This document shows, in pieces, positions 14,833 to 47,091 of a DNA stretch of 64,000 nt (positions within the stretch are counted from its first letter, which is position 1; the number at the start of each line of letters is the position of its first letter). The position numbers and the translations under genes are program-made. The notes under the pieces were generated by a model. That model made no database searches and was not told where the DNA came from. It worked only from the letters and a program-made list of their open reading frames with translations. Location of the stretch: contig OX485804.1 of assembly GCA_950295325.1 (NCBI GenBank), forward strand, positions 994,001 to 1,058,000, written 5' to 3'. The DNA is from Polytrichum commune. Taxonomy: Eukaryota > Streptophyta > Polytrichopsida > Polytrichales > Polytrichaceae.

Positions 14833-15553
14833 CCCAAGGGGTGGACTATTCGTTGGGAACCTAAATGGCGTGCATGGGTCACTATGAAATCAAACCCCCT
14901 ATAAACAAGAAGTTTATAAAGAAAAACAAATGTATGTGTATTAATTGTAGGCTAGAAAATGGACTCATATATTTATATTACGTTTTTCAAGTTAATATGA
15001 TGAATGCTTCCACCACATAAACAAGATCTAATCCACGAATTGAATATGCCTTTATTACATATGAAATCCACTTTCACTTTCCAGTGAGAAAATCATAATT
15101 CTTTTTTTCAACCACAACATGTAACTCAACGATTGCATAAAACAAACAAAGACAAAAGCAAAATAACTTAGCCACAACATGGAGAGCGAAACTTAAGAGA
15201 GCCCATGGGCACTCCAAGAGCCTTCAATTGGTAAACACTTAGAACCCAAAATGCAAACCCTATCAAGAATGAACATGGTAGTCATGTAGGACTACTACCC
15301 AATGACAATAGTGGATGCAAACATGAATTGGATGAAACTAACACATCTATTGTCAAGTTTTTTCTCTAAACCTTAGGGTCCCTTGTGTACATCTACCTTT
15401 ACTTCAAATTTCTTGATAGCCTTTTTGGATGTATAAACTAAAGATATACAATACCTCTTCCTTATGTATACTATGTATGCTAATACCTGAAAATAATACC
15501 CCTCCTTACACTCACCTTAATTTGTACGTGGTATGAAGAGTCCACCCCTTGAG
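14833..15553. mobile_element. hAT-like TIR element, copy 1 (721 bp)
   Basis: Exact 8-bp direct repeats GCAAGTGC flank it at 14825-14832 and 15554-15561. Inverted ends: left CCCAAGGGGTGGACTATTCG, right (reverse complement) CTCAAGGGGTGGACTCTTCA. The right half, from about 15320, is repeated at 43905-44130. No transposase frame lies inside, so it is non-autonomous. Length and arms resemble the 741-bp element at 16263. An 8-bp target duplication is typical of hAT elements. It interrupts older transposon-like sequence. Confidence 0.8.
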
Positions 15554-15609
15554 GCAAGTGCTTTGAGCAAACCACCCTGCCACCTAGTGCCCGCAAGACA
15601 AGCATCCTT

Positions 15610-15832
15610 GAGGTGCAATAGGGCACCCCTAATACCTTCATGATAGTAAAGATGGCCAATATAGATTCTCCAACTCTATCTCGCATAATGATATTCGCAT
15701 CAAGGCATCCGAAGTGTCCAACTTTAATGAAGCTTGCAAGTGACTCTTGACAAAATCTTGTTTTGAAAATCCTCTTTCACAAATGGCAATCTTTTGCAAC
15801 CTGCTCCCAAACCCCATGGTGAGTTGACACAA
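15610..15832 (-). pseudogene. Decayed hAT-type transposase fragment (C-terminal dimerisation region)
   Basis: Minus-strand translation from 15832 gives a segment with ICERGFSKQDFVKSHLQ, LDTSDALMRISL and ELENLYW. This follows the pattern (C)ERGFS..N.IK...R..L....DALMRIS....E of hAT transposases and zinc-finger-862-like proteins. The frame stops after about 55 residues and no upstream catalytic or zinc-finger parts were recognised. Element copy 1 is inserted directly downstream, so the source transposon was already present when that element arrived. Assignment rests on motif memory. Confidence 0.55.
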
Positions 15833-16262
15833 AATTCCTCATATGCAGAGCATTTCATGTAACCTTGTGTGGGCCCACCATGTGGTCTCGCATGCATGAG
15901 CCATTTCCTACCAATTTTCCAAGATGATCTAACATCCTTTCATATGTCCGTGCCTAAGCTCTTGTAGGTGCAGGTTGTTCAACTTCTCGGTTTAGGTGAA
16001 TGTTCACTTGAGTTTGTGGTGCAATTTGTACAAACCCATCCTTGATTGATTAAAGTGTAAGAAAATGAAAGCTAAAAGACTTTTGTGAAAATAACACAAA
16101 GTGAAAGAACACTTTTGAAAAAAAACTTGTGGGGTATAATCTTAATAAGTAAGATAATACAAAGTAAAATTATTCTTTGCATTTTATTCACAATTCAATC
16201 ATATATATATAAATTCATCATAGTCAATAACTTCAAAACATACATAGCTTGGTGGAAACGAT

Positions 16263-17003
16263 CTCGGGGGGTGCACCTTTCATTAAAACCTAGAATCACG
16301 TGCGTTCACTGCATACTCTAAAAACCCCCTATATACAAGTTATTTTTTGTGAAATGAAGTAATACACATACAATTGCAACAATAAATATACAAGTGACAA
16401 TATGTATACACAAAAAAACATCCATTCATATATAGTCATTAACATAAGTATACAAATATACTTTTGAACAATAATCAACCCCTATAATATGTATAACAAA
16501 ATATCCTAGCTTTCATCAGCAAAGTCGTTGAAAACTTTTTCATCTCCCGGATGTAACTCATAAACATTTGATTCACCAATATATGTCATTGTAGCCAATG
16601 CAATTATTGTCTCTAAGTCTACCATCAAATGATCAGTAAGATCATATGTCCACTTGTTGTTAGCCCCTTTTTGATACCAACATAAACCAATCTCCACGTT
16701 TGATGGACAGTCCATCACGTCAATTGGATCCCTATACTCCACCCAACGATTACCAAACTTCCTCCGCATCCTATAAACTCTCCCAACAAACCAAACCTTA
16801 TGAAAACTTATAATATGTAGTATAGTAACAGTACCATACAAGTACAATTATTATATACTTTTTAAAGGCCTTCCATATATGTACTTAACTATAAATTATA
16901 ACATGTATACCATATGTATACGTAATATGGCAAGGTCCAAATCAATACCCCTCTTGTGCACTCACGTATACTCGTACATGTTTAGTACAATGCACCCCCC
17001 GAG
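16263..17003. mobile_element. hAT-like TIR element, copy 2 (741 bp), with internal coding-like segment
   Basis: Exact 8-bp direct repeats GAAACGAT flank it at 16255-16262 and 17004-17011. Ends are CTCGGGGGGTGCAC on the left and its near-perfect inverse on the right. A CACGTGCG box lies at 16297-16304, about 35 bp inside the left end. It carries a minus-strand open segment (16506-16814), described separately. Confidence 0.85.
16506..16814 (-). CDS. Unidentified exon-like open segment inside TIR element copy 2
   Basis: On the minus strand an acceptor-like ...ttttcataag precedes an open frame of about 100 residues ending at 16506. It opens VWFVGRVYRMRRKFGNRW, continues with VEYRDPIDVMDCPSNVEIGL and later YDLTDHLMVDLETIIALATM, and ends YELHPGDEKVFNDFADES. 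The composition looks like real folded protein (many W, Y, charged residues, no low complexity). I do not recognise the family. It lies wholly within the element, so it is either the last exon of a gene fragment captured by the transposon or what remains of an element-encoded protein. No start codon with context is evident, and expression is unknown. Confidence 0.35.
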   Translation of the reverse strand: MISFHKVWFVGRVYRMRRKFGNRWVEYRDPIDVMDCPSNVEIGLCWYQKGANNKWTYDLTDHLMVDLETIIALATMTYIGESNVYELHPGDEKVFNDFADES

Positions 17004-17011
17004 GAAACGAT

Positions 17012-18408
17012 TTAAAAATATGCACCTCTTGAGAAGGCTCATGTCTATGTGAACCTTGAGAACCAAATAAAGATGTCATGACAAGTCCGTGAGGATCCCA
17101 CTTTGGTTTGTTGAACCTTGAATTACGTCCTGATGCCATCTTGAGGTTGATTTGATACTCTAGTGATATAGAGTTACATATTGAGCAATTATTAGCACCT
17201 GGATAATTGCCAAAATGCTGAACTTTAGCTTCATTTTTTTCATTATACTTATCCTCGGAAGAATCAGGGGCTGTGAAGTTTGTGCAACAAAAAGAAATGA
17301 GTGTTGTACAAACCAGAGTACAAAGTGTAGTTTTTAACAAATTAGGAACCAGCTTGCCTGATTGAATGAGCTTGCCACTTTCTGATTCAAACACCCTCAA
17401 TGATCTCCCCTTCAGCACTTAAATCCTCTTTGCAAGCAATACTATTGTAAAAGAAAACAGAAGCCAACATGGTTTGTTGGTGCATCATCCTCAGTGAAAG
17501 AACCAGATTGATTTTGCTCAAATCGACTACCGAATCAGTCTTCTTCATTCTTCGAATACAAGACATGTACAATAGTTGCACTTCCTGATGATGCAAAGGG
17601 GGGTTCCCAGTATGAGATGGCTTTAGTTTTTATTTTTATTTTTGAATGGAGGAAAAATCAATCTCCTATCGGTTATCGGTTTACTTATTTAACCATGTGA
17701 TGCATCACGCAGAGGAAGCGCCACTTGTTGGTGCACTTGAACCAACATCTGGACACTTGTCTGTACCGAGTGGAGAAAGTGACTCCGAAATAGGGTAGTC
17801 ACTGGAACAATTAGATGCTTGAGGGATGGGAAGGCGATTGTGTGCGCACATATAATAAAAGAGCAGCCTTCGTCAAGTGACTCTTCCTTTGCATTGGTGT
17901 AATGACAAGGTTGCACTTGAGCAATGTGGCCAGGGAATGTAATACTTCACTTTTGGTCATGACGTGAATTCTCTTCGTTCCTTTCCTTTTGCTGATTCTT
18001 TTTGGCATGGGAGAGGGGTACTAAAGCTAATGAATCAAGATTCAATAAGGAACCCAACAAACAACCTCTTTAGCTCCATTCTCGAGCATCCAGTGTTGTT
18101 GTGACTGAACCTAATTGGGAACCCCCTAATTCACCCCATGGGAACCAACAAACAACCTAGCATATTCAGCTCCATTCTCAAGCATCTAAGTGTTGCGGTG
18201 ACTAACCTATTTTAGGGAACCCTAATTCACTCCCTAATTCACCATTCACAATCAAATGGCCAGGGAGGAAGGAAGGCATGGAACTCTCACTACCTTGATT
18301 TTGAATCACCTTCTCTGAATGATGCACAATGGTGAGCTGTGGTGGAGGAAAGACTTGACGTGTGAATGCAGTTGCCGAAGCATCAATCAATTATAGATGT
18401 AAGTAGAA
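17012..18408. other. Intergenic region with a short tandem duplication
   Basis: A segment of about 100 bp is duplicated at roughly 18047-18140 and 18141-18235. The words CAACAAACAACCT, AGCTCCATTCTC-AGCATC and CCTAATTCAC recur in order. A minus-strand frame at 16942-17418 spans the right edge of element copy 2, so it is unlikely to be a native gene. No family was recognised. Confidence 0.5.
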
Positions 18409-18775
18409 ATCTGGACCTAACATATGCTGCTCTTGCTCTTGCTCATCACGTCATCGGTGGACATGGCCATCGACAGTTGTTTTGCAAATTTCCTGCAAAT
18501 TTGGCACTGCATGATCTTAGACATCTTTGAGAAACTTCATCGGCGGTGCACAGATGAGCGATGTGCAACACTCTGAGCATCTTGGCATCCCAGCCTGGTT
18601 TGGCATCATTTTTGACAAGCTCAGGGTTTAAGAATTTTGTGTGCTTATCGCTTCTTTATCATCTGCTGCACCCAGCCAACCAAATTCCCACCCTCGATGT
18701 CCTTGAACTCATCCCTCATCGATTTCTTTTCCCATTAAATGCTCAAGCAAGATGATGCTGTAGCGGTTATATGGT
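18409..18775 (-). pseudogene. Decayed partial tandem duplicate of the receptor-kinase 3' end
   Basis: This stretch repeats 18933-19325, the last 125 or so codons of the adjacent EMS1-like kinase. Matching words include gaaatctggac, acatggccatcgacag, gatgtgcaacactctgagcat and attaaatgctcaagcaagatgatgc. It lacks about 40 bp in the middle (the part encoding the R-R-P-T-M motif region) and has frameshifts and stops on the minus strand. It cannot encode a kinase. Confidence 0.85.
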
Positions 18776-18929
18776 ACTCCCTATTCAATTCCCTCCATTT
18801 TTGCCCACATTATCTCCCCTTCCATGTCAACGAGGCCTTTTATCTGGAAGCTTGCTTATCTCCCTTACCGCGTTCGTCTTCTCCTTCCCGTATTCGCACC
18901 GTTCCTGGATGTGGTACGTGGCTGTACAC

Positions 18930-21900
18930 CTAGAAATCTGGACCCAAGATATGTTGCTCTTGCTCATCATCACCTGATCTGTGGACATGGCCATCGACAG
19001 AGCTTTTGCAATCTTCCTGCAAGTTTGGCACCGCATCTTCAACATCTTTGAGAAACTTCACCACCTGCAGCATGGTGGGACGCCGCACGGGATCATCGGA
19101 TGTGCACAAATGCGCGATGTGCAACACTCTTAGCATTTTGGCATCCCAGCCTCCTCCAACACCTTCTTTGACAAGTTCAGGGTCGAGAATTTTGTGTGCT
19201 TCCTTCTTCTTGATCATCTGCCGCACCCAGCCTACCAAATTCCCCCCCTCGATCTCCTTGAAGTCATCCCTCGTTGGTTCTTTTCCCGTTAAAAGCTCGA
19301 GCAAGATGACACCATAGCTGTACACATCCCCTCGAGTAGTTGCCCTCCAGCTCTGCCCATACTCGGGTGGAATATACCCGAACGTGCCTGCAATGTCGGT
19401 GCTCACATGCGTTTCGTATGCAGAAATCAACCTCGCAAGCCCGAAGTCTGAAACCCTAGGTTCGAATTCACAATCGAGAAGGATGTTGCTAGCCTTGATG
19501 TCGCGGTGAATGATGTGTGGGACGAAGGCGTGGTGGAGGAAACATAACCCTCGGGCTGATCCTAATGCAATCTTAAACCTTACAGGCCATGTCAAAGCTT
19601 CTAGTGCATCTGCTCTGTTTCGCAACCAGAGATCGAGGCTGCCTTTTGCCATGTACTCGTACACCAGGAGCTTCTCCTCTCCGAAGCTGCAGTAGCCTAG
19701 CAACGGAACGAGGTTTTGGTGCTTCACCTTGCCTAGAGTTTCCATCTCAGCAAGAAACTCACGGTTCCCCTGGGACAAACCTTGACCTAATTTCTTGATG
19801 GCAACAATCCGGCCATCTGGAAGCTCAGCCTTGTACACAGTGCCAAATCCACCATCCCCAACGATGTTGCGTTTGCAGAAGCCATTTGTGGCGAGCAGGA
19901 CATCGGCTAGAGTCAGACGTAACAAAGGCTGCTCGAACATGGCAACGTTGATGCTCAGTGGCTCCTTCAGTTTGTCCAAGCTTGGGTTAGAAGCTGATCT
20001 TGAGTTAGAAGATGATGATTGTTTCAGTTTTGCCTTCTCCAAGTCTTTACAGGCTTCCACTTGCTGCTTCAAATGCCGCAAGCGGAGAGCCACGAACAAA
20101 ACCACGAGCATGACAATGATACACCCTACCAGGATCCCTAAAATTCCTGCAGGATTGAGAGCTTCACCGGTGGCTGTTGAGGCACAGACCGTATGGATGG
20201 CATCTCCGCAAAGTGCCATGTTGTTGAGAAAGGATGATGAAGTGAAGGAAGCGCATGCACCTTCATTCGGAATTTCACCATACATCATGTTGTCGGAGAC
20301 ATTGAGAAACTCAAGGCCCAGGAGATTGCATAAGTCGGCTGGAAACTCGCCGCTGAGGTCATTCTCGGACAAGTCCAGGTAATTGAGCTGTGCCAAGCTG
20401 CCGAATTCCGCAACAATTGCTCCGGTGAGCTTGTTGCCTCGAAGGTCGAGATAGGATAACCCTGAGAGGTTGCCAACAGTGGAGGGGATGCTGCCACTCA
20501 AAGAGTTGTAGCTCAGGTTGAGAGTTCGCATTTGATGCCACACTGAGCTTTCAGAGAACAAACCAACCAGGGCGCCGGAGAGATTGTTTTTGGACAAGTT
20601 GATGCTCACAACAGACACAAGGTTCGACATAGCCGCAGGGATGCTGCCATTAAGTTGATTCTCACTCAAGTCAATGTGCCAGAGGAGGGTTAGGTTACCA
20701 AGTGTGGATGGCACCGAACCTGACAGAAAATTGTTTGAGAGGTTCATCGTCACTAAGTTCTGCAGATTGCCAAGCTCCGGTGGCACCGAACCTGAGAGCA
20801 TATTAAATGCCAGGTTCAGTCCTTGAAGCAGCGAGCTTGCACCTAACTGTGCAGGAACACTTCCATTCAGCCTGTTGCTTGACAAGTCCAATGTGGTCAA
20901 ATTGGTGAGGTTTGCAAGCTCTGCGGGTATGGCACCTGTGAGCAGGTTTCCATTCAACCTGAGCTCCACAAGCACCGCGCAATCTCCCATTTCAGGTGGA
21001 ATCCTCCCACTGAGACGATTGTTGGAGAGGTCCAGGATGCCATGGTGCTGCACAAAGCTGGACTGCGGGAGGGTCAGAATCCGGAAGTCGTTCCCTATTT
21101 CAGCAGGAATTTCTCCACTCAGCTCATTGTCTGCAAGCACCAAGTAGTCCAGGTTTACAAGTTGCCCTATCTGCTTCGGAATGAACCCGGTCAGAGAGTT
21201 GTTCCCTAAATTTAGCGTTGTGAGGTTCACGCAGTTACAAATCTCGGGGGGGATATCTCCCATGAAATTGTTTCCGTTCAATGACAACACAGTAAGATCT
21301 GTCAATTTTCCAATTTCAGCCGGAATACGTCCACTGAAGTTGTTGTTGTCAAGCTTTAGGTACTGCAATCCGGTCAAGTTACCAATCCGAGAAATAACCC
21401 CACTCAACCGGTTATACGAGAGCACAATCTCATACAACGTTGTTGAGCTCCACAACTCATCTGGCAAAGTTCCAGACAAATCATTGTAATCCAAGGAGAG
21501 GATGGCAAGCTTTGGCAGATTTGCAAGGTACGCTGGCACGGTGCCTGATACTCGATTCTCACTTAGGTCAATCTCTGACAAGTTTGAGCAATTGGTGAAA
21601 GTTGCAGACAAGGTGCCAGAGAGGTTGTTCTCGTTCAAGGAGAGTGTGTCAAGGTTGAGTGCATTGCAGAGCGATGAGGGAATCTCTCCTATGAGATTGT
21701 TGTTGTCAAGGGCTAGGGTTCGAAGGCTGGTGCAGTCACCTAGCTCCGGTGGGATGGATCCAGTGAAACGGTTGTTGGAGAGGAGCAGGGATGTTGTCTT
21801 CTTCCAGTTGCTCAGCCATGGGGGGATGGTCCCTGTGAGTTGATTGCCTCCCACTGAGAAGGAGATGATGTTCCGGAGGCTGGAAAGGGATGCAGGTATG

Positions 21901-24580
21901 GTGCCGTTCAGCTTGTTGAATGCCAGGTCCAGCACCTGCACTTGCAATTGCGATGACCATATATCAATCCGCTGGTGCGAGCATCACTTTCTTTCATTCT
22001 AACAAACTACGTGCAGCAACAATATGGCCACACAAGACTCGTTATTCCTTTCCGGATGGCCGTCACTGTGAACGTCATTCTCAAATTCTGCGTTTCCTGC
22101 TGAGCGGATTGATGCATCGATGAACTTAAAGCCTGGCAGCATCATTTTCTTTATGCAAATTGTGCAGCAACAATGGAGCAGGACTCGTTTCCTTTCGGCA
22201 TGACCGTCATTGTGAATTTCATTCCCAAATTCTGCGAACTTTTCTGCTGAGCGAAATGATGCATCGATGAACTCAAAGGCTGTGGAACATTACGCAACCC
22301 TAACCCTACAACCGGCAGAATTGCTTATCGACATCGACCTACTGTACTTGCAATGCATGAAAACGCTCACTGTCAAATTCGAAAGGTTTACTTCGGCGAC
22401 ACCAATTTGACCTCAGAGACCCTTGAATCAAGCGTCCTAGTCGTCCGTTCGGTGACCCAACTCAATCTCTGACATTAAGAGTTGCAAAACCTTCAAAAAG
22501 CTCCTAGTAATTGATTCTACCCTCCTTGTTGAGCGAATTTTAGTAATTGGGGATCCAAGCCACTCCTTGTACCCAAATTTCAAGGAACTTGAGTGGCGAG
22601 TAGAATATTATATTCAATGTTGGTGTTGGACCTTACTGTAAATGCTTTAGGTCCAAAACCAAGCCTCTTTGCTTATGATCCCAAGAAACCACTCTCAAAT
22701 GCTCAGCTGCTCAAAGCTTAGCCGATCTTTGAATACCGATTTTGAAGTTATTTCTTACCCACATCAAGCAACTGATTGCTTTTAATCTTGCAGTACAATC
22801 ACTATTCAATGAGCTATCAGTCTTCATCTTCCGTCGAGCCTCTTGCACGCAGTAAGCTTCCAAGTTTAGGTTCTTTGCAACATTCATGTCGAGCTCAAAT
22901 GTTGTTCAAATGAAATAAATAAAGAGTCTATTTCTCTCAAGAACTTTCCAACGAGCAGTCGGATTGAACAAAGTCAGCCTCCAAGTCCAGGTGTGCATTA
23001 AAACCCTACAACTCCTACAACTTCTATGGTCATAATCTTGCCAACCAACGAAACCGCTGATCGACATCGACCTACATGAAGAAAGTGCTCATTTCTCACA
23101 TTCTTTATGTTTATTTGGGCGATACCAATCTGACCTCAGAAACCACCTAATCAAACAGCCTGTAGCTAAGGATCCTCGTCGTCCTCTCGGTGACCCACTT
23201 ACAATGTACTCAACCGAGCTGCCCATTTCGAAAGAAATGCAAAACCTTGACAAAGCTCCTACTCCTTGGCTCTACCCTCCTGGTTCAACAGCAAAATCGA
23301 ACCCATTTCGGGCCGCCATAGCCAAGTACTCATCAACATCATCAACACTTGCAACAACCAGGTGCAGAGGTTTGACGCTCTCTTACCTCCAGTTTGGTGC
23401 AGTTTGCAAGAGATGCAGGAATGCTGCCGCTGAGGTTCATCTGCGGCAAATTGAGGGTGACGAGATTTTTGAGCTCACCGAGTGACTCCGGGATGCTCCC
23501 CGAGAATTGGCTGCCTCCCAAGTCCAGCTTCTCCAGCAGCGTACAATTGGCGAGTTCGGGAGGAATGCCACCACTGAACTCGCCATCGCCGAGATACAGA
23601 ATTCTCAAGTTCACCAAACTCCCAACCTCACCCGGGACACTACCCGAGAGTTTGCAGCTACCCAAGTCGAGCTCCACCAACGATTTCATCGTCCAAATCT
23701 CACCAGGGACGGATCCAGTGAATGAGTTGTTGCTGAGGTCCAAATGTGTCACCAAAGGCAACGAGGCAATCAACGGTGAAATCTCCCCCGAAAATAAGTT
23801 GGAGCTGAAGTCGATGTACTCCAGTTGGGTTAACCCTTGCAGCGCTGGGAGGCTCCCGGTGAGGGAATTCGAGCTCACTGCGATCTTTCGCAGGTTCGTG
23901 AGCCTGGCCAGCTGCGGTGGGAGAACTCCTTCAAAAGAATTTCCACTCAAGTCCAGCAACTCCAAATTTTTCAAATACTCCAACTGCGGAGGGACTGCAC
24001 CACTCAACGAATTTCCCACAAGCAGAAGGGTAGTTAAGTTTCCCAAACTCCCCACATGCGTTGAAAGCTCCCCGGAGATGGCATTGTAGCTCAAATCCAA
24101 GTACTCGAGGTTGGTGAGGTTGGTGTAAAACTCGGCTGGGATGGGGCCGGTGAGGAGGTTGTTCATGTTGAGGTCGAGGAACAGGAGGTTGTGCAGGTTG
24201 CCGAGCTCTGGGGGTAAGGCTCCGGAGAAGGAATTGAAGCTTAGGTCCAGATATTGTAAGCTTTTCAGAGAACCAAGTGTTGGAGAGATTGAGCCTGAGA
24301 GCCCAAAGTTGTAAAGAGAGATGTTGGTGACCTGGTGCATGTCGTTGCAGGTTATACCGGTCCAGTTGCATGCAGATGTGTCGGTGGTAACCCAATCGGA
24401 AAGCGGGTCCGGGGAGCTCGAGTCGATGATCATACCCTTCTTGAACGCCATGAGAGCTGCAACTTCGGTGGTGGTGATGGAGCTCGCGAAGATGAAATTC
24501 AGCGGTTGTTGCATGCAGAGTAGCGAAAGGGTGCAGATCAAAGCCGTAAATCGCTCCATCTCATAATAAGTTTGCGGCAT
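18930..24580 (-). CDS. EMS1/EXS-clade leucine-rich-repeat receptor kinase, about 1,399 aa
   Basis: Two exons, 24580-23387 and 21935-18930, joined in phase across a 1.45-kb intron (gtaaga...gcag). The join rebuilds an LRR: NCTKLE then VLDLAFNKLNG. Order: signal peptide (about 1-32; a second ATG at 24559 would shorten it by seven), a CNWTGITC cap, about 35 LRRs, and a break with FVQHHGILDLSNN as in EMS1. A membrane span follows near 994-1014, then the EPLSI-VAMFEQPLL juxtamembrane motif. The kinase has GDGGFGTVYKAEL, Lys about 1112, HRD near 1208-1210 and DFG near 1228, so it is an active RD kinase. In Arabidopsis EMS1 perceives TPD1 in anther cell fate; this lineage may differ. It is some 200 residues longer than Arabidopsis EMS1 (1,192), mainly in extra LRRs. 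An in-frame stop two codons before ATG 24580 supports the 5' limit. Confidence 0.93.
21936..23386 (-). repeat. Receptor-kinase intron with two internal duplications
   Basis: 21965-22135 and 22138-22290 share 'gtgcagcaacaat', 'gaccgtcattgtgaa', 'caaattctgcg', 'tgctgagcg' and 'gatgcatcgatgaact'. A longer unit at 22300-22560 recurs at 23000-23300, marked by 'aaccctacaac', 'atcgacatcgacctac', 'gacctcagaaacc', 'cggtgacccac' and 'gcaaaaccttgacaaagctcct'. The copies are direct and diverged. No coding sequence is apparent. Confidence 0.65.
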
Positions 24581-25446
24581 TTCTCAACCATCAACTTCAA
24601 AACTTTGAATTAGTAGCAGAGGCTGATGATGCAAATATGGCAAATTTCAATCCGATCATCGACATAAATTCACGTTTCGGTGGTGGTGAACATAACCCAG
24701 TCAGTGAAGACAACCGTATTACAAACGCCAGAGATTCAGACTCCGGGCCGCTTACATACAGTAGCACTCAATCCATCACAACTCTTCCAAAACTCTCCCA
24801 AACATTCCCCAGAGCTCAATCAATTCTTTAATTACTGAAACTACAGCCCAACCCAGGAATTTCTCCTCTCCCACGTTGCAGAAATCACTCCAGGAAGAGT
24901 GTCCTGCAGCTTCACCCCCGGTGGTGATGATCTGAAGTAGTACGCCATCAGCTCTCTAACCCCCTGCACAGTCACAGATCCCATTTCCCAACATACAAAT
25001 ACAAATCTCCCAATATCCCTGCAAATCACCCTCCGTTCAACCTAATACAGAATAAATCCCTCAATCCCTCCCGACCCACATAACCTCGACTGCAGCAACA
25101 TGCAACACTACAACCTTGACAACACAAACGTATACCCGGGGACATGAAACTTAACCCAAGAAAATATCCTGGAAAATTATAAGCAGTTGCACAGCTAGCT
25201 GCTTCACTAGAGGATCAGCGAGCTATCCCTCTCTGAAGAAACTTCCTGCATGAAGAATCATCAAGATCTTGTGATGAGAGCGTGACTCCGGAGAGATAGC
25301 CAAGAATTGATCATCTCCTGGAACTGCTTAACATGCAGCTGGCTGCAGCTGGCTATATTGTGAGTAGTACTAATTGGACACCTATAAGATCCTGTTGATC
25401 GATCTCAAGAAACTTAGGAGTAATGTGTGTGAAGAAATGTAAGGAA

Positions 25447-25454
25447 ATATTTAT
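25447..25454 (-). promoter_or_regulatory. Candidate TATA box of the receptor-kinase gene
   Basis: The minus strand reads TATAAATA here in a mixed-composition context. It lies about 870 bp upstream of the first ATG, so the 5' UTR would be long. Sequence alone cannot confirm use. Confidence 0.35.
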
Positions 25455-25610
25455 ACGAGTGAAGACTGTGATGGGAGGAGGGACGATCATAATGTGGACC
25501 AGCATCCATCGATCAGTGTGCAGTGTGACAACCGCTGCATCTTCATCTCCTTAGGCTTCTTCATCATCGAATCATATTGGTGATCTTCTACATACATATG
25601 TTACAGGGAA

Positions 25611-29456: not shown

Positions 29457-29954
29457 CACGGGTAGATCACTTAGTGCATTTTAAAAACAACGTGCGGCAT
29501 AATATAGAGAGGATTAAAATCATTTGAAATAAAAATTATAAAGGAATTACAAGTAATGAAGGGGCCATTAAATGTAGACAATCCCATTATAAGTAAGTTA
29601 AAGGGACATAAAACATGGGCCATTATTTTTTTGTAAAATTAATATAGGGGCTGAAGATAAGGATCCTAGAAGGTATGTTTAGTATGGTATGTAAATGGGT
29701 TTAGGACTCACGGGGATGGATGATAATTGGGATTTCCGTCTGTCCAAAAATGGCTTAAAAGGAATATAGAGTACAAAAAATTGCAGTGACTTGGACAATA
29801 TAAGTAATGGAAGGGTGCAAACAAATGGGCCACTTTTGAAATCTAAGTAATTATAGGGAGGCTTTAATTCAGCCCTTGAAGGTAAATAGCCCCAAAACAA
29901 AAAACCCCCAGCCGCACGTGGTGCACAAAAATGCCTTAGAGTGATCTACCCGTG
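29457..29954. mobile_element. hAT-like TIR element, CACGGGTAG type (498 bp)
   Basis: Exact 8-bp direct repeats CAAGGATC lie at 29449-29456 and 29955-29962. Both ends begin CACGGGTAGATCACT and both carry an inward ACGTGCGGC box about 40 bp inside. The first 245 bp and the last 200 bp match the element at 45959-47091, but the middle differs. No coding capacity was seen. Confidence 0.9.
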
Positions 29955-34060: not shown

Positions 34061-34109
34061 GTACCATCTAGGACTCATCGACCTTATCAAATATAATTTT
34101 TCACGTGGG

Positions 34110-35574: not shown

Positions 35575-35665
35575 GCCGTCAAGGATTGAACCTGGACCAC
35601 TAAACATGTGATGCAACAATGAACCACTGCGAAGTCTTATGACTTGGCGGCCACCTCATGAAGAA
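35575..35665 (-). repeat. tRNA-like / SINE-like fragment
   Basis: On the minus strand TTCGCAGTGGTTC (35633-35621) resembles an RNA polymerase III A box. GGTTCAATCC (35592-35583), 28 nt downstream, fits the B box. No cloverleaf forms. It could be a SINE head or a chance match. Confidence 0.3.
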
Positions 35666-36594: not shown

Positions 36595-36874
36595 CTCGGG
36601 GAGGACACTTAGGAAAATTAGTAAACATGGTGCGTTAAAATATAGGGTGTATTTTATTCATGAGCAATAAAATTTAGAAAAAATTAGATGTAATATAGGA
36701 TGCTTAAAATTCAAGTAAGGAATAATTAGAGAATATATCAAGAACATACCTGGAATATTATAGACTATTTGATAATATACCTCAAATATTCCAATTATGT
36801 GATAGCCTCATTTAAATACCCCTTTAACGCACGTGTTCACACAAAGTATAGTGAAGTGTCCCCCCCCCCCCGAG
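36595..36874. mobile_element. hAT-like TIR element, CTCGGGG type (280 bp)
   Basis: Exact 8-bp direct repeats AATATACC lie at 36587-36594 and 36875-36882. Left end CTCGGGGAGGACACTT; right end, inverted, CTCGGGGGGGGGGGACACTT with a 12-base C/G run. A CACGTGCG box is at 36829-36836 in inverted sense (cgcacgtg). It is non-coding. Confidence 0.9.
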
Positions 36875-37502
36875 AATATACCAATTTCACATATAGTTCA
36901 TATAAATTGGTTGTAAATGAAACGCACATGTGACGTTTCATAGTCGGAAAATGGGACCTATTATCATGGAAATCATGCTCTATGGCTAATTACGGTTATA
37001 GATACTTCATTGGAGCGCTTGTAACATTTAGTGATTTTCAAAACAACAAGATATGGATATTTGCATGTTAAGAAAATTGAATGGAAAGGAAGCTATGCAT
37101 GACTCAATGACGATGAAGCAACAAACATATACAAAAGAACATGTGGTTCATTGTTGATATCCACATACATTGATTTTATTGTTGATGAGGGAGATGCCCA
37201 ACATTACAACAAAAATAGCAAATTGCCAAACAAATCCAAAGTTGGGTTGATGTCATCATCTTAGTCATTATGACCATTACAAACTCTGTACTTAGTTCTA
37301 TCTTGGTTTGTCAAAAATCATATCAATGCCTTCATCTCGAACTGCAGCAACCCAATGCCCCCATACAAATTGGCAAACCATGCCATGGAAATCATATATC
37401 ATCCCTAGACTTCTTGGCTAGTACAATTTCACTAACCTCCTCATTTTGCAAGACAATTATTGTCCAATATTCATAGTGTCAATACAAAAGTTGAACTCTA
37501 AA

Positions 37503-37663
37503 CATGGGCGTCGCCAGGCCTAGGCCATGTGTCCAAAGGGCCCACCTGATAGCCTAGGTCATATACAGAAGATGATAATTTATCCTTAAAAAAAACATGC
37601 ACTGGATAAAATTTGATTTCCTGAACAAGCCTACCCTGAAAATCAAGGTTGGTGACGCCCCTA
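37503..37663. mobile_element. hAT-type MITE with GGGCGTC ends (161 bp)
   Basis: Exact 8-bp direct repeats ACTCTAAA lie at 37495-37502 and 37664-37671. Inverted ends are CATGGGCGTCGCCAGG and TAGGGGCGTCACCAAC. These ends differ from the CTCGGGG/CACGGGTAG family, so this is a second hAT-like lineage. Confidence 0.85.
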
Positions 37664-38153
37664 ACTCTAAATCCAACTTATTATATCTCTTGGACTAGAT
37701 TGTCCGCTCTTCACCTAAGGCAAAGCCAACAAGATAGCAAGCCTAGATGCACAATGCCATGAGGATTGCAATTGACGAAGCTTAAGTATAACTAATTGGG
37801 GATATGAAGGAGCATAACTGAAGACAAACATACCACTTAGTTTCATAATTCCATGCATTATTTGAAAAAAAAATTGGTGCTCACGTTTCCTAACTTGTAG
37901 GGTCAATTGAAATGGTAAAACTTGATGGCAATGGTTGAGTAGGCCTAAGTAATTTCGTTTATTGTAATTGAGTAAAGGCCACCACAATAAACCTGACAAG
38001 GAAATTAAGTCTTGAACTAGATAATGTTTGATGGTCTTATCCTGGTCATTGGGAAGTTGTGAATGAGACCACCTAAAGAGGTTTCATCACTAGAATTTTT
38101 TTTTATAAAGAAAATTTATTAGCACAAAATGGTGTAATGATTTGGTTCATCAC

Positions 38154-38502
38154 CTCGGGGGGGGGGGGGGGGGGGGGTAGTCATTGGTTGGAGTAGCAAT
38201 ACACGTGCGAACAAATGATAGGGTATTTAAAAAACATGAGGGCAAAAAATTATAATTGGACTTAAGAGTAATATAGGGTATCAAAAATGGCATTGGACAT
38301 CTTTAAAGTACTTTAGGGTATGAAATAATAGGTAATTTGGAATTATAAGTAAGGCAAGCCATTTTTCTATTAACCCAAAGTAGAAGTTTACATAATGATA
38401 GCATGTGAAAAAAAGAAGTGAATTGAAAGTAATACCTCCCTATAAAATAGTGGTTGTTCGCACCTATATCCTTAACTTTTTAACACACTGCCCCCCCCCG
38501 AG
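38154..38502. mobile_element. hAT-like TIR element with long G-run ends (349 bp)
   Basis: Exact 8-bp direct repeats TTCATCAC lie at 38146-38153 and 38503-38510. The left end is CTC followed by a run of 21 G; the right end is a run of 9 C then GAG. CACGTGCG lies at 38202-38209, and a matching GTGCGAACAA lies in the inverted right arm. It is non-coding. Confidence 0.9.
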
Positions 38503-39165
38503 TTCATCACTAAACCATTTTTTTATAATCTTTTGGAAAATATGGCTTTCTTCCTCATAGAATGTTCCTCTTATTAGCCTATTAAATAGACTACACTGCC
38601 CCAAAATATTGCATTATCTTTTATACGTGAATCATGATCAACACAAGGGGAACGGACTCTCAACGTTCATGTTGGTGCCAAAACATTGATGTTCTCTTTT
38701 TATTTCCCCTGTAATTATGTGCCACTAATTTGAGTGTTACATATAGACATGTTTGTTGTAGTTTAACATGATGGTCAAATTCATCCGTGTGACTCTGACC
38801 TAAGTTGAAGTACATTCATGATGAATTCCCAATCACAACAACCTACCCTATCACTCTATGAAACTTACTAGAACAACAAGTACATGGGGGAGCACACCAT
38901 ATGTATGTTTGTGTGTATAGTATATATATACATGACTTCAACACCATCTTGACTATTCTACCAAGTTCCAAAGTTTCAAAAGGTTTGAGACGTACCAAGG
39001 AATTTCACTCCGCCACCAAAATTCCTTGTGTACCTACAAAATGATTACATGAGACCACCTTCCAATTCATGTACTAGAACTCCGTAGGCCACAAGTTTTC
39101 AAAGTTCACAAGAACTAACCAATAGTTTATGCAACCCATATTAACCCCTAAGCTTAAACCCTAGA

Positions 39166-39568
39166 CACGGGGAGGTCACTTCATTGTCAAGTTGACACCA
39201 CGTGTGGACAAAGTTTGCTACCCCTATATTACATGCCATATATAATTTTAAAATTTATGATATTTTTTCTACATATACATAACCATTGATAGTATCTTTT
39301 GTATATTTTTTTGAAATTTTTAGTTATTTTTTTAGTAATTGTTTTAGTTCAATTATGTGTCATTCTAGTTAGAAACGGTATGTTTTATGAAAAAAACAAA
39401 TCATCAAATTTAGTTACCACTTTTAACTATGTCATAGGTATTGTGTATATCTACTCATGAAAAACATTTGATAAAATTTTGACCCATTTTGGTGGTGCAA
39501 CTTACCAAAAGAAGATTTTTTTTGGTCGCACGTGGTGTTCAACTTGACAATGGAGTGATCTACCCGTG
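39166..39568. mobile_element. hAT-like TIR element, CACGGGTAG type (403 bp)
   Basis: Ends CACGGGGAGGTCACTTC and, inverted, CACGGGTAGATCACTCC, both continuing ATTGTCAAGTTGA and a CCACGTG box. Flanks ACCCTAGA (39158-39165) and ACCCTATA (39569-39576) match at 7 of 8. It is an older copy than its relatives and is non-coding. Confidence 0.85.
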
Positions 39569-39576
39569 ACCCTATA

Positions 39577-42500
39577 GGCCTAATTTAAGCCTCTCCATCC
39601 ACAAAGATATGTATTTGAGCTACACAATTTCAGTTTGCTAATTATGTCAAAAGTAACCCTATCTAAAATCAACACATTATTTAGCGTTCTTTTAAAAATC
39701 AGTTGATTATCTTAATTTTCTTGAATATTTAGATTCAATTACACTACGCTAGTATTCATGGATGTAAACACATACATAGTATTTCCATGATCGATGTCAC
39801 ATGTGAGGTATTTATATTGGATCCTCAACATCAGATTATGTACAAAAACAAAGACTCAAACCCATAAGTAAATAAATATAGGAGGTTTAAAGTTAATGAG
39901 GCTTATAGAAAATTTGTTTATGGCCTTACATTGAGCTCCTTGTTCTTTTAAAGGCAAATTCAGACAATTTTTGAGAGCATTAATTCTTTTCATTTTCTAT
40001 TAGTATGAATTCTAACACGCAACTTAAAATCATATGTATAGTGTAGTGTACAACTTTCTTTGGTAACTCATCCATTGCTCCCAGGATAAGGCCAATTAAT
40101 GCTAGAGTCTGTGGCTTGGGATGTGGATACTTGCTCACTCCCATATGCCTTGGCTAGTCCACCATCCAAAAGAAGAAGAAGAAGAAGAAGAAGAACCCTG
40201 ATCCTTGGCGAGGGCTAGAGTGAATAAAATGTATGTTTGTAGAACATTTGTAGCCATGCTCAGGAGCAATGATGTGGGATGTGTCCACCATCCCAATATA
40301 GAAAGCTTGCATCAAATAACGTTCATAAATTTTAATTGACATAATGATGTGAAGGTTCTAGTGATACAACATTGCAATCATATTCAAATTCTAGTCGTGA
40401 ATTAAATGGTCTAGTTTTTGCTTCATTGGGAGCTCACCTATCAATGATTGTTATGTATATTTTCAAATTTTGACCATGTTACATTGTACATTAGACATGC
40501 AGGTCGTTCTCCCAATTTTACATTCCATTTAGTAAGGAGTCTATGAAATATGATATGATCATTTTTCTAATATTGCTATAACTGGTATATATAATTATTC
40601 AAACATAGATAGAGTTATCTTTTTATTTGAAATGGTCTACTTTTGGTCACAATTTCATTGTTTTTCATGTAAAAACTTTCCATGCTTGGTGAGTTTTGGT
40701 GCATCCTTGGAGTTGGGGTGAAGGTTTGAGCCCAAAAAAAAAATCATGTATTGTTCCATTGGGGGCCAAACTTGTCTTTATCCCCAATGTTCGATTATAA
40801 CGAGTTTGGCCCGCAATGAACTGTATAGAATTTTCTTCATTCAAACCCCCACACCAACTCTGAGCCCCAACATAGTTTCCATCACTATTCTTGAATACAC
40901 GAGCTAATTATGGCCATGTCAAAAATGGCAAAGCATATCACCTCAGGGACCCATACATGTAAATGTCCGTATTCTACACAATAATTACACAAATTAAATG
41001 TTTTTATTTTTGAATGTTTCAGTGTTTTAGAGTTGAGCAAAAATTCAAGGGACTTGATTATTTTTAAGATTTGGGATGCTTTAAAATACAACATTTGTGT
41101 GAAAATGTATTTTCATATTTTAGAAATGCAAGTGTAGGTGGCGGGATTTGAACCTACATTTTTGTCCTCCCAAAATTTATTCCAACTTTGCTATAGACAT
41201 ACTCTTAAAGAAGATGATGAGAATTTTCACACTTTTATATAATCATAAAGAGCAAGGTGGGAATGGATCAAAATCTACTCTCACCTTGTTCTCTATTATT
41301 GAGACCCTCTAGGGAACATTGATTTACCATGTACACTTATCACGATTCTGAAACATTTGTAGATTGTAATAATAATAATAATAATAATAATATTAAACAC
41401 CATAACATTAAAACTTTACTATGGATAAATACCCATGCAGGGTCCCCAAGACAACTATTTTTGCATATTTGACAACCATAATTAGCTTGTGCATTCAGGA
41501 CCAGTGATAGAGACCATGTTAGGGAACTCTAAACATGCACCAAAAACTTGCCGAACATGAAAAAAATTGTGTATGCAAAATAAGTCATTATATTCATTAA
41601 TCACAAACTTTGGAAAGTCTCAAAATAAATGCAAGTGATTTAAAATCTAGTTTAATTTCTTGTTGTGACAAAATGTATTTGTGCCAAATTGATTATTGAT
41701 ATAAGCAACTCCGGACCAACACCAAGACGGAATTAAAGGATAACTTTAATTCAAGAAACCCATGTAATTGGTGTGGAATGGCTAGACTTGTGTGCTTGAT
41801 AAGTAACTTAGGGTGCACATCTTGAGGTGGGTTGTGTTTGTAAACCGTCATAAGTAGTATCCGCCATATCCTACGCACTTCCTTCCGTGTGCAATTCAAG
41901 CGTAATCATCACCATGTGAACGTAGCTTCACTTATGTGTCAAGCTTCAAGGACAAGTTCAATGACCAAATCAAGTAGATCAATGACCTTGTGGTTGCTTG
42001 TGAAGATTGTGCACCTCTCATCCTAGTCGATGTCACCAAGAGCCCTTCCAAAAGCCTTTCATATGAGGGCTATTTTACACACGTGACCGACGGCCATGAG
42101 AGAAAATAGTTTAGGTCTTCTATTGGTCATGGTTGGCGGTCCGAAGTTATGATCACAAAAAAAATTTATCTTTTTATTTAAGAAAAAAATGTGGTTAGGA
42201 GACGTAGTGTAAAAGGGACTTAGATTGGGATGTAGTGTTTTTCATGGGAAACTGTGGAATATGTTACGGAAAATATATGTTCTTCAAAATGGTCATTTTC
42301 ATTGGGAAAATCTATTCAATCTTTGATGTTTTGTTGCAAAATCTAAGCAACTATAAAAAAAACATTATCCATTTATGTGCATTCAGGATACCATGTCACT
42401 TCTCTTGCATTTTCTAACATGGCCAATCTTATGTTTTGTGACATTGTGTAAAGCAAAAAGTGGAATCGCCACTTGTTTCTCAACCAGTAAGAGGATTTTG

Positions 42501-43904
42501 AAAGTGGAGGTCATGGTTTGTGGTCCAATACACACATGCCCTTACTGTATGTTTAATATTGATACTCCTACTACCTACAATCTAGAGCGGTAAAAGTTTA
42601 ACACCTACCATTGAGGGCGTGGTAACAAAAATAAGATGAAGAGTTTCTCCCTTTGATCTCGAAGCAAAAGGGAGACAAGGCATAACATTATTAAGCAAAA
42701 TGCATTCGTTCATGTGGCCCTGAGAATATAATTATGGGATGCCACATCTAATGTAGCTTAATAATATTATGAGGCCCTTGCCTCAAGAGGTCTACTTAGA
42801 GTAATTGTGCAAAGAAGGCACACTAGTATCTGAAACTTGGTGCTTATAATTAGTTCAAAAGGAGGCTTCTAGACATCTCCACTACTAGGCATCACGTTTA
42901 CAATATGGACAAGATATTGATATTAAGGTAGACATGCCTAAATCTAACACAACATTGATTTACACACATATATTTAAGTGGTAAGGTAGATATACGGAAA
43001 ACAATGAATTTAAGTTGATTCGGCCATAAAGAGTGGCTTGAAATTGTACAATACTTTTCAAAGATAGAGAAGAGGGAATGATGAGGAATGCAAGTTGTTT
43101 CATAATTTTATTCCATGTAAATAAATAGTTACATGTTCCCTCGGGGCGATCACATCCCCTTACGTCTTGTAACCACGTGCGATAATGGGGTATTTAATGG
43201 GGGGATATTTATGCACCTCTCAATATCTTTTCTTGCCCTATTTGTAGATATAAAGCTATTTTGACGCATTTTTTAGCACCCTATATTTATTTGTAATTAT
43301 TTAGAGAGGCTAATTTTTTGGCACCATATCTTTTTTATAAATCATACAAGTACCAAATAGTGGACGGAATACTATAGCATTGCAAAATTGACTATGTGAG
43401 CAACAAACATTCCATACCATCCATCTTGTCATTCAATTGACTTCAATTAGTTATACCAATCCTAAACCATTCAAAGTACCATTCAAAACACAACCAATAG
43501 CATTTGGGTACTAGTTAAAGGGTTACCAATAAACATGGAGATAACAAAATATACAAGCTATAAAGTTGTAAACATGGATAGAACAAAACAAGAATTACAA
43601 TAAGTTATGACAAGACATAGAATTTTGCACAACTACCTACTCCCCAAAAAATATTGCATTCAAATACATGAAAGCGAAATACAAAAGCCATAATTATTGT
43701 ATTGATCCTACTACATACTTTTAGGGGGATCCAATATCTATAACCCTATTTTTTTCTACTGATTGCTAAAATGGAGGAATTATTCACCACCCTATTTTAC
43801 ATATAATCATGTAGGAGACATATTTCCAATGCTAACCCTACACATGAATGAATAGCGTAGTTATTGAGGACTATTACCATATGACAACGATAGATGAAAA
43901 TATA
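39577..43904. other. AT-rich intergenic DNA with simple repeats
   Basis: Microsatellites are (AAG)n near 40173-40196 and (AAT)n near 41368-41392. A CTCGGGG-type end followed by CACGTGCG lies at 43139-43190 without a detectable partner. No gene was recognised. Confidence 0.5.
41136..41208 (-). repeat. tRNA-like fragment
   Basis: On the minus strand TAGCAAAGTTGG (41193-41182) is A-box-like. GGTTCAAATCC (41154-41144) is a perfect B box. The T-stem and acceptor stem pair poorly, so this is a decayed tRNA or SINE head, not a working tRNA gene. Confidence 0.35.
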
Positions 43905-44130
43905 AATTGGATGAAACTAATACATCTATCCTCAATTTTTTTCTCTAAACCTTAGGGGCCCCCTTTTGTACATTTATCTTTATTTAAGAATATTAATAGC
44001 CCTTTTAAATGTACACACTAGAGAAAACCAATACATCCCCCTTATGTTATGTATGCTAATGCCTCCAATACTACCCCTTTCTACACTCACGTTAGTTAGT
44101 ACGTGGTATGAAGAGTCCACCCCTTAGGTT
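43905..44130. mobile_element. Partial copy of the 14833-type element
   Basis: It matches 15325-15553 in the same orientation: 'ttggatgaaactaa-acatctat', 'ttttctctaaacctta', 'tatgctaatgcct/acct', 'acgtggtatgaagag' and 'tccacccctt'. The left end and target duplication were not found. Confidence 0.65.
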
Positions 44131-45950
44131 ATTCGGGCCAACACTTTTACAATTAGCCATTTTGGGTCCACACAAGAATCATTCTACCCCTGATCTTTGA
44201 TTATTTTGATGAAGGAAGGATGATACAAAAATATAGTAATTTGATTGTATAGAACTCCCTCAAAAGAAATATAAATAAAATCTTGAATTTGGGTAAAGTT
44301 TCAAGATCTTCTTCTTCCAGAACAAATAAATGTTCCAATCCCATTGTAACATATTTGCTATCGGTTCTTAATTACAAGCCTTGTCATATATGACTTAAAT
44401 TTGTCCAATTAAAAAGAGTGACCACATAAGAGCCACATACATGAGATGTCCAACTTGCAGCTTCTAGAAAATGCCCATCTCCTAATCGCCCAATGTAATG
44501 GTTTAAAATGGTGCAAACAAATCAAGCAAATAGTATTAGAACCCATCATTTGGAGTCATCATCAACCAACATCCAACAACACTAATTAATCATGTGGATT
44601 TTAAACTTGAATTCATCCATCCATCCATCCATCCACATATTCCTTTGCATTCCAATCGGATCCATGCCCATGCATGGGTCATGCGTGGGCCATGCATTTA
44701 TGGATGATGCATGATCCTTTGACCGATATTTCACCCATTGCCACCCACCCACCACTCCTTAAGCATTGGATTGGCTCGCCCTTGAGAACCAAAACACGTT
44801 ATTATAAAGTGCATTTGGCATTCAATTGAGGCACATGCCAACATGCATGAATATAGCACCCCCCCGCCATCACAAGGGGCCATCCATGGGAGCGAATCTT
44901 TGTTCTTTTGTTGTTGTTGTTGTTATGGCCAATCGAGTTTGTTAAATGCATCACATTGAGTGGGTGGGTGGGTGGGTGGCACGGGTGGGCCGGGCATGTC
45001 ATGTGGGTTCCCATGTGCGTGCCCGCCACCGTTTTGGGGTCTCCAATTAAGGTGACCTGCTATACGTGACTCGTATTTAAGTAAAAGTGAACAGAGGATT
45101 AGTCCAGGACGAAGATAGATGGGTCTTGAATGGTTAGTTTTTTCAAGCAGCCCACACCTCTTGGGATATTAAACATCTCGATTGCGACCAGATGATTAGC
45201 AAATTCAAACCGGGGGTTGTAGCCACTTTCCTCATAGTTTTCGGAGCTCCTATGAACATCTTTTCATCATCAAAGTGAAGCTATTCGTGCTGATTACATG
45301 GTCATGTAGCCCCCCTCCCCTCCTCCAAGTATGATGTTGACTATTGAGCTTAGAATGGTTAACATATTTTGAGCATGTACTCGAATCTCTTTTAATCACA
45401 TGTCTTTTTAGTCACCATTCTTGAAGCCACATTTAATCATGTACCACTCAAAGAAAGGTGTCCAATTCATACAAGTAGTTGTATTAGGCATGTCTACTTT
45501 AGATAGATAGGCACGCCGGTCCCTATGAGGACAAGCACATGTGAAGAGTCTCTTCACCTAAGGCAAATAGAAAATTTACTATGTGGATAGCTACACTGAA
45601 TGTTGTGTTTAATGTCACTTACTATTTGAAATTATGCAGTGCTACAATTGTTTTCTATTAATGCACTTTTTTTTTTACCAAGTAAAGACGTCGGTGTCCT
45701 ATAATGTCCAAACAACCAATTTGATCTTTGTTGGCAACAATTGAGAAATATAGTAAATAGTATAGCATTGCGTAATTCTAAACACCATGAATCCTTGGTC
45801 TTGAAAGTTGTTTGATGCAGCGCACCACCTAATACTGCATATGTTAATGTTTCTAACATATGAGTACGTATTCAAGTTCAAACCACACATATCCAAAAGA
45901 AATTATGTAAGATTTCTACTTTATTATCAAACCCTTCAACTTCATATACC
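44131..45950. other. Intergenic DNA, nothing recognised
   Basis: Simple repeats only: (ATCC)n near 44616-44636, (TTG)n near 44908-44926 and GGGT repeats near 44961-44980. Confidence 0.45.
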
Positions 45951-45958
45951 AAAGCATT

Positions 45959-47091
45959 CACGGGTAGGTCACTTAGTGCATTTTAAAAACAACGTGCGGC
46001 ATAATATAGAGAGGATTAAAATCATTTGAAATAAAAATTATAAAGGAATTCCAAATAATGAAGGGGCCATTAAATGTAGACAATCCCATTGTAAGTAAGT
46101 TAGATGGACATAAAATGTGGGCCATTATTTTTTTGTAAAATTAATATAGGGGCTGAAGATAAGGATCCTAGAAGGTATGTTTAGTATGTTTACTACACGG
46201 GTAGGTCACTCTAAGGCATTTTTGTGCACCACGTGCGGCTCGGGGTTTTTTGTTTTGGGGCTATTTACCTTCAAGGGTTGAATTAAAGCCTCCCTATAAT
46301 TACTTAAATTTGAAAAATGGCCCATTTGTTTGCACCCTTCCATTACTTATATTGTCCAAGTCATTGCAATTTTTTGTACTCTATATTCCTTTTAAGTAAT
46401 AAAAGCTAATCTACTTCCTAACGCATTGACGAGTGTTAAGGGAAACCATGGAAACAAAGAAGGGTGCAAACAATAATATCATTGCAAACAAAATTATGAA
46501 GAAAACACATAGGAGACCATAGCAAACATTATACTAAACATACCTTCTAGGAACCTTATCTTCAGCCCCTATATTAATTTTACAAAAAAATAATGGCCCA
46601 CATTTTATGTCCATCTAACTTACTTATAATGGGATTGTCTACATTTAATGGCCCCTTCATTATTTGGAATTCCTTTATAATTTTTATTTCAAATCATTTT
46701 AATCCTCTCTATATTATGCCGCACGTCGTTTTTAAAATGCACTAAGTGACCTACCCGTGGTTTACTATGGTCTCCTATGTGTTTTCTTCATAACTTTGTT
46801 TGCAATGATATTACTGTTTGCACCCTTCTTTGTTTCCATGGTTTCCCTTAACACTCGTCAATGCGTTAGGAAGTAGATTAGCTTTTATTACTTAAAAGGA
46901 ATATAAAGTACAAAAAATTGCAGTGACTTGGACAATATAAGTAATGGAAGGGTGCAAACAAATGGGCCATTTTTTAAATTTAAATAATTATAGGGAGGCT
47001 TTAATTCAGCCCTTGAAGGTAAATAGCCCCAAAACAAAAAACCCCCAGCCGCACGTGGTGCACAAAAATGCCTTAGAGTGACCTACCCGTG
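45959..47091. mobile_element. hAT-like TIR element, CACGGGTAG type, interrupted by a second copy
   Basis: Exact 8-bp direct repeats AAAGCATT lie at 45951-45958 and 47092-47099. Ends begin CACGGGTAGGTCACT, with ACGTGCGG boxes about 40 bp inside. The body is split at 46195/46760 by the nested element; without it and one target copy the element is about 560 bp. It is closely related to 29457-29954 at both ends. Confidence 0.92.
46196..46759. mobile_element. Nested hAT-like TIR element in inverted orientation (564 bp)
   Basis: Exact 8-bp direct repeats GTTTACTA lie at 46188-46195 and 46760-46767, inside the outer element. It is the same family in opposite orientation and nearly collinear end to end with the outer copy, including 'gaaggtatgtttagtat' and the (a)taggggctgaagataagg block in reverse. 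It is non-coding. Confidence 0.92.

Follow-up and report, generated by a model that had tools for sequence, protein, structure and literature searches.

Analysis of a 64-kb window of the genome of the moss Polytrichum commune (contig OX485804.1 of assembly GCA_950295325.1, positions 994,001 to 1,058,000; window coordinates below count from the first base of this whole stretch) revealed eight short insertions, named E1 to E8, that very probably represent non-autonomous copies of cut-and-paste DNA transposons belonging to one diverse group. We put the probability of this reading at about 90%. The full elements of the group have inverted ends of the form C(T/A/C)CGGG..., 8-bp target-site duplications (TSDs) and a single long frame of about 1,500 amino acids (aa) without interruption, and their layout appears similar to that of P elements. 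An earlier interpretation of the window from its letters alone, hereafter the sequence-only reading, had taken the insertions for one family of hAT-like miniature inverted-repeat transposable elements (MITEs).

The eight insertions are real and lie where the sequence-only reading had placed them. Their inverted ends have 9 to 15 identical bases within the first 15, and the 8-bp TSD is exact in seven of them; that of E6 has 7/8 matching bases (ACCCTAGA/ACCCTATA). In 200,000 draws of random same-length pairs from the window, 8/8 matches occurred at a frequency of 3.5e-5 and matches of at least 7/8 at 7.3e-4. The insertions, to which no strand is assigned, are E1 (14833..15553, 721 bp, ends CCCAAGGGGTGG/CTCAAGGGGTGG, TSD GCAAGTGC 8/8), E2 (16263..17003, 741 bp, TSD GAAACGAT 8/8), the CACGGGTAG-type E3 (29457..29954, 498 bp, TSD CAAGGATC 8/8), the CTCGGGG-type E4 (36595..36874, 280 bp, TSD AATATACC 8/8) and E5 (38154..38502, 349 bp, TSD TTCATCAC 8/8), E6 (39166..39568, 403 bp, ends CACGGGGAGG/CACGGGTAG) and the CACGGGTAG-type E7 (45959..47091, TSD AAAGCATT 8/8), which is interrupted by E8 (46196..46759, 564 bp, TSD GTTTACTA 8/8), a member of the same family nested inside it. 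An additional element, absent from the earlier list and likewise without an assigned strand, occupies 43140..44128. Its left end, CTCGGGGCGATCACA, carries the CACGTGCG box described below, and its right end and interior are E1-like; no TSD was found at either candidate right end, by script or by eye. At the ends of E4 and E5 (36595-36602, 36860-36874, 38154-38177 and 38485-38502), the G run after CTC ranges from 4 to 21 bases. Its length also varies among the genome copies listed, a pattern that resembles slippage at a terminal repeat.

The coding parent was reached through E2, which contains a 113-aa open frame on the minus strand (16506..16847). This frame is a C-terminal remnant of a transposase-like protein of about 1,500 aa, as judged from its tblastn matches with seven family proteins as queries (E values of 5e-9 to 3e-15). 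Searching the genome with it gave 150 scored matches among 2,904 candidates, some of them within frames of up to 796 aa, and upstream extension from those matches yielded frames of about 1,500 aa. Seventeen coding loci (L011 to L027) were read, the stretches of L014, L015 and L024 being the ones extended, and six of the 17 are complete coding elements of 5.8 to 9.7 kb with 8/8 TSDs. Stop-to-stop frames measure 1549 aa in L018 (5,802 bp, TSD AATCTAGA), 1493 aa in L019 (6,351 bp, TSD AAAGAAAC), 1518 aa in both L014+L048 (8,426 bp, TSD GTGATTTC) and L015+L050 (8,423 bp, TSD GCAATGGT), and 1502 aa in L049+L024 (9,703 bp, TSD CATAGACT); in L027 (7,004 bp, TSD GGGATGGC) a stop divides the frame into 964+572. 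A coding copy with an internal deletion, L013, measures 2,982 bp, and its TSD is 7/8 by eye. In the four complete elements scanned in full, with a minimum frame length of 110 aa, the second-longest frame has 247 aa.

Alignment of the short insertions with these loci showed E2, E3, E5, E7 and E8 to derive from coding elements by internal deletion. E2, which belongs to the L013/L011 coding family, joins one end of L013 (539 bp, 98.7% identity) to the other (205 bp, 96.1%). E3, E7 and E8 consist of the two ends of the 9.7-kb L049+L024 element, with 92-98% identity, and E5 of the two ends of the 8.4-kb L014+L048 element (89% and 85%), with the junction at bases 180/181. The earlier description of the insertions as MITEs, which implies that they are non-autonomous, is supported in that respect; five of them align at both ends to coding elements and are missing the middle. 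The short copies have the features of MITEs, being short, non-coding or remnant-coding, numerous, and provided with inverted ends and TSDs; a parent with the same ends is known for E2, E3, E5, E7 and E8 only. The L014 and L015 elements are 99.5% alike over 6.7 kb and occupy different sites with different duplications, which indicates recent movement. In L016, the N-terminus of the frame is replaced by a repeat (TPPIEV...SPRHEL...) that also lies between CACGGGTAG ends in L007 (1132-1449), which suggests capture or insertion of another repeat.

Searches of the 408-Mb genome returned many further copies, in numbers that chance does not explain. The pattern CTCGGGGN{20,45}CACGTGCG gave 503+539 matches, against 1+0 for the reversed pattern, and CACGGGTAGRTCAC gave 1501+1486 = 2,987 exact matches, against 2+1. 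From 100 listed end places of the CACGGGTAG type, all on contig 1, we counted 28 pairs less than 1 kb apart by eye. As the sequence-only reading had anticipated for copies across the genome, 8-bp duplications are usual among the 20 such pairs that were scored: TSDs were 8/8 in 15, 7/8 in 4 and 6/8 in 1, with matches of at least 7/8 in 0/400 shifted controls. One pair, inside L006, was left out of the 20 and has flanks matching at 5/8. Among three longer pairs, the L005 pair has an 8/8 TSD, and those of L006 and L007 match at 1/8 and 0/8.

The two end types, CTCGGGG and CACGGGTAG, form one group, as had been proposed, on the evidence of mixed-end elements, shared end stretches and the protein tree. 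L027 combines a CCCGGGG left end with a CACGGGG right end, and the right end of E6 is identical over bases 12-42 to a CTCGGGG end from the genome listing. End type also tracks the tree of the protein of about 1,500 aa. In a core-protein tree of 12 rows, for which end types were assigned beforehand, eight CTCGGGG rows fall on one side of a branch with support 99/100, counting the near-copies L018/L021 and L014/L015 as separate rows and assigning L011, L017, L020, L021, L022 and L026 from a single known end (CTCAGGG in L022). The two CACGGG rows group with L027, which has mixed ends, and with L017 (CCCGGGG).

In L015, positions 144-643 are occupied by a short CACGGGTAG element that has a duplication of its own (TCTAAACC, by eye) and is separated by about 13 bases from the end of the 8.4-kb CTCGGGG element. 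In L012, a short CTCGGGG element of the E5 type (4265-4602) lies close to an incomplete coding copy from the parent family of E2. At 2125-2780 of L006, two CACGGGTAG right ends come one after the other (2622 and 2780), each with the flank ACACAAAGGGGTGGTTTC behind it, and no target duplication fits, which suggests local rearrangement or tandem duplication.

A box inside the ends is shared by most of these elements. Exact CACGTGCG occurs eight times in the 64 kb, always within an element end: on the plus strand in E2 (16297..16304), E5 (38202..38209), the element at 43140 (43174..43181) and E8 (46230..46237), and on the minus strand in E3 (29913..29920), E4 (36828..36835), E6 (39527..39534) and E7 (47050..47057). 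The sequence-only reading had described it as common to the family; it is indeed present at one end each of E2 to E8, and is missing from E1, the ends of which are CCCAAGGGG/CTCAAGGGG. We then compared 27 ends, comprising the 16 of the window insertions, one of the element at 43140, eight of four complete coding elements and two of L013. The constant part of the box across the elements is GTG[ACT]G, which begins at positions 36-43 in 25/27 ends (2,000 shuffles of the sequence beyond base 15 of the ends gave a mean of 0.6 and a maximum of 4); 23/27 have the narrower GTG[AC]G. The two exceptions are the left end of E1 and the left end of E5, in which a long G run moves the box to 52. This box is a plausible candidate for a transposase-binding site, as the sequence-only reading had suggested.

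Two further suggestions about the box fared less well. A GGGGTATT-like word had been said to follow it, and this is not constant: GGGTATT lies within the first 90 bases of 9/27 ends, and the box with the GGGGTATT word at a fixed 6-base gap has one exact match in the genome. The CACGTG core had also been likened to a G-box with possible effects on nearby genes. CACGTG is present in just 11/27 ends, including the shifted end of E5, and in 1/8 ends of the four complete coding elements; L018 and L019 have ATACGTGAGA, ATAGGTGAGA or ATAGGTGCGA. The G-box idea is weakened accordingly, and a G-box role for the whole element group is not supported by these sequences, although single copies might still have such an effect.

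Purifying selection seems to act on the protein of about 1,500 aa, since synonymous sites are saturated between families while nonsynonymous differences are limited (proportions of synonymous and nonsynonymous differences, pS 0.81-0.86 and pN 0.16-0.39, in 20 of 21 pairs). The pair left out, L014 and L015 (pS 0.005, pN 0.004), has too few differences for any statement on selection. Residues D757, D876, D923, H926 and E1118 (L018 numbering, alignment A1) are invariant and include the motif D923xxH926, and the five proteins measured (L014, L017, L018, L019 and L020) agree exactly in the spacings of 119 and 242. L024 has the same motifs, with CEVFFS replacing CEIFFS. A zinc-finger-like C/H pattern was seen by eye in the N-terminal region. 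Neither full-length proteins nor core segments had a significant match in Pfam (E up to 10, in one scan up to 1), PDB gave no usable match by sequence or profile, and no confirmed relative was found in IMG/VR or prokaryote genomes. Nor was there a credible match up to E 10 to KDZ/Zisupton, Merlin, MULE, Sola or others in the Pfam searches by HMMER, which alone can miss remote kinship. The names Sushi, AT_hook, CoV_NSP2_N, Cas_Cas1, Gemini_AC4_5_2, Thioredoxin_4 and Polysacc_deac_2 came up in Pfam as unrelated, sub-threshold families and were treated as noise. An AlphaFold model of the 113-aa fragment of the window was uninformative, with a mean predicted local distance difference test score (pLDDT) of 40. 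The protein is most likely the transposase of these elements.

The order of the invariant acidic residues, and part of their spacing, resembles that of P elements. The P signature consists of D230, D303 and D339, the last in a [C/D](2)H motif, followed by an insertion with an essential D444, and E531; the corresponding residues of human THAP9 are 304, 374, 414, 519 and 613, according to the portion of PMC8230255 available. The moss proteins show the order D, D, D(2)H, insertion, E, with a distance from D(2)H to E of 195, compared with 192 in Drosophila P and 199 in THAP9 by those residue numbers. An invariant Asp of the insertion, D1025, lies at +102, compared with +105/+105 in P and THAP9, having been chosen post hoc among several invariant Asp. 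Duplications of 8 bp and copies with internal deletions are found among P elements too, and the P transposase has 10-bp internal sites lying 9 or 21 bp past the 31-bp repeats (excerpts of PMC7776569); these internal sites would parallel the box of the moss elements. PF21787, the P-like RNase H family, touches the first-D block in L018 and L019 at 12.1-12.7 bits. Both the P-like reading and the choice of PF21787 preceded the appearance of that family in the scans. The match is a hint only, because unrelated families score as high. The layout may thus work like that of a P element, and membership of the P superfamily is left unclaimed, because the Pfam hint is sub-threshold.

Several points weigh against a transposon group with a P-like layout. 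Transposition, excision and binding of the box are all inferred from sequence, and the lack of a usable PDB match to the protein counts on the same side. In ten of the 17 coding loci, the stretch fetched contained at most one end: one side only in L017, L020, L021, L022, L025 and L026, one end in L011, L012 and L016, and none in L023. No coding parent was found for E1, E4 and E6; E1 and E4 do not match the coding elements, and the match of E6 is limited to a part of the L020 stretch that adjoins another CTCGGGG end, outside the coding element. The longer CACGGGTAG pairs of L006 and L007 lack a duplication. The box motif was picked after the ends had been inspected and was widened from GTG[AC]G to GTG[ACT]G, and the 27 ends include close relatives. 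As to the likeness to P, the spacing from the first to the second D is 119 here, compared with 73 in P and 70 in THAP9 (from the part of PMC8230255 cited above). The PF21787 scores are far under the 24.6-bit cut-off, the family was listed for 1/5 N-terminal core segments in one scan, 2/10 in another and 0/5 full-length proteins, and a six-frame search of the genome with it gave nothing, control genomes being equally silent. Five full-length proteins yielded no THAP domain up to E 10.

The hAT assignment of the sequence-only reading was not supported. That reading had looked to a coding relative with matching ends for a hAT transposase, and had named an autonomous relative from another superfamily as evidence to the contrary. 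A parent with these ends and 8/8 duplications was found, and by sequence its protein is unlike hAT, the domains Dimer_Tnp_hAT, DUF659 and Hermes all being undetected up to E 10. We consider it very unlikely that the insertions are ordinary hAT MITEs moved by one of the hAT transposases of the genome, the frame of about 1,500 aa being cargo. The 8-bp duplications are compatible with hAT, which (Ac/Ds, Hermes) also has short inverted ends and many MITEs, and hAT transposases are abundant, with at least 150 matches to the dimerisation domain (150 scored of 1,060 candidates). The block S..CE.FFS..GGM of the new protein is, by eye, loosely like the hAT ER.FS motif, and was counted for hAT. A survey of RNase H-like proteins, in the part of PMC3985635 available, places P and hAT transposases in one group, and a remote tie of the new protein to both is possible on that account. 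However, a profile built from six of this genome's hAT proteins, which retrieved Hermes at 8.5e-58 as a positive control, matched the new family at 0.3-0.4% probability in hhalign. In addition, none of seven hAT loci read (L001 to L004 and L008 to L010, 8-9.9 kb each, searched with exact words; seven of the 150 scored) is bounded by a pair of these ends, L001 having one CTCGGGG end about 5.8 kb from the hAT frame and L004 one CACGGGGAG word. The cargo idea also sits badly with the shortness of any other frame in the four complete elements, 247 aa at most, and with the agreement between end type and protein tree. The same two observations argue against a host gene family captured by elements, as does the recurrence of the same frame in elements of several end types and lengths. 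Such capture, for which the replaced N-terminus of L016 shows that capture or insertion does occur here, is in our judgement extremely unlikely.

The place of the group among known superfamilies is a more evenly divided question. A very divergent lineage of the P superfamily in a land plant has about an even chance of being the right answer. It would account for the P-element traits of 8-bp duplication, internal sites near the ends and internally deleted copies, for the order of acidic residues with its similar late spacing, and for PF21787 falling on the expected block in L018 and L019. The new elements differ from Drosophila P and THAP9 in the spacing between the first two D, in the sub-threshold Pfam scores and silent genome search, in the THAP domain not being found, in their CTCGGGG/CACGGGTAG ends, in their plant host, and in a protein of about 1,500 aa that is much longer than the 87-kDa P transposase. 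A separate, undescribed superfamily, no nearer to P than to other RNase H-like transposases, is a serious though rather tentative alternative. It would fit the lack of any Pfam or PDB family at a usable score and of a confirmed relative in IMG/VR or prokaryote genomes, and the six terminal inverted repeat (TIR) superfamilies of land plants in the available text of a review (PMC9033089) exclude P. Conversely, the P-like motif order and the partial agreement in spacing speak against it, and its comparison set excludes Repbase, Dfam and eukaryote protein databases.

In three hAT loci, at 3466-5021 of L001, 7645-9243 of L002 and 599-2962 of L003, one or more extra frames starting SSRLELETTIW... 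accompany long hAT frames of 867-1,084 aa. In L002 and L003, these extra frames gave no confident Pfam family, with one RING-like match below the cut-off. L001 to L003 are possibly two-gene hAT elements.

For the group with the 1,500-aa frame, we propose the following mode of transposition. The N-terminal zinc-finger-like region would recognise the GTG[ACT]G box about 36-43 bp inside each end. A catalytic core arranged as in P elements, with an insertion domain and an acidic triad of the RNase H type, would cut at the C(T/A/C)CGGG ends and join them to the two strands of the target at points 8 bp apart. Incomplete gap repair may be the source of internal deletions, which would generate short copies that retain both ends and the box, and these could be mobilised in trans.

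The P superfamily is known mainly from animals. In the text available of the review cited above (PMC9033089), the TIR superfamilies of land plants are Tc1-Mariner, hAT, Sola, MuDR-Foldback, PIF-Harbinger and CACTA, and no comparable transposon, whether P-like or new, is named for mosses or plants in the open-licence literature, in the portions available. A survey of 207 genomes sorted plant MITEs into five superfamilies by ends and duplications (PMC12550479, in part). The new short copies are like the MITE families of that survey in being short, with inverted ends, target duplications and high copy number; their 8-bp duplication would point to hAT, though the parents found are non-hAT. Classing by TIR and TSD would thus probably file them under hAT. 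That the coding elements represent either an undescribed superfamily or the first deeply divergent P branch of land plants, with thousands of short-copy ends misfiled as hAT in plant annotations, is a claim for which we see the odds as balanced, and its novelty is provisional because Repbase and Dfam lie outside the comparison. If it is true, a plant element cannot safely be assigned to hAT from an 8-bp duplication, and one more lineage of transposases requires naming. The group is convenient for study: its coding copies are long and uninterrupted, its deletion derivatives are clear and its two end types agree with the protein tree, so that recognition of the ends by the transposase is directly testable.

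Besides these elements, the window encodes a plant-type plasma-membrane H+-ATPase, the best PDB match being 'ATPase 2, plasma membrane-type' at 598 bits and the next scoring 247, and a leucine-rich repeat (LRR) receptor kinase.

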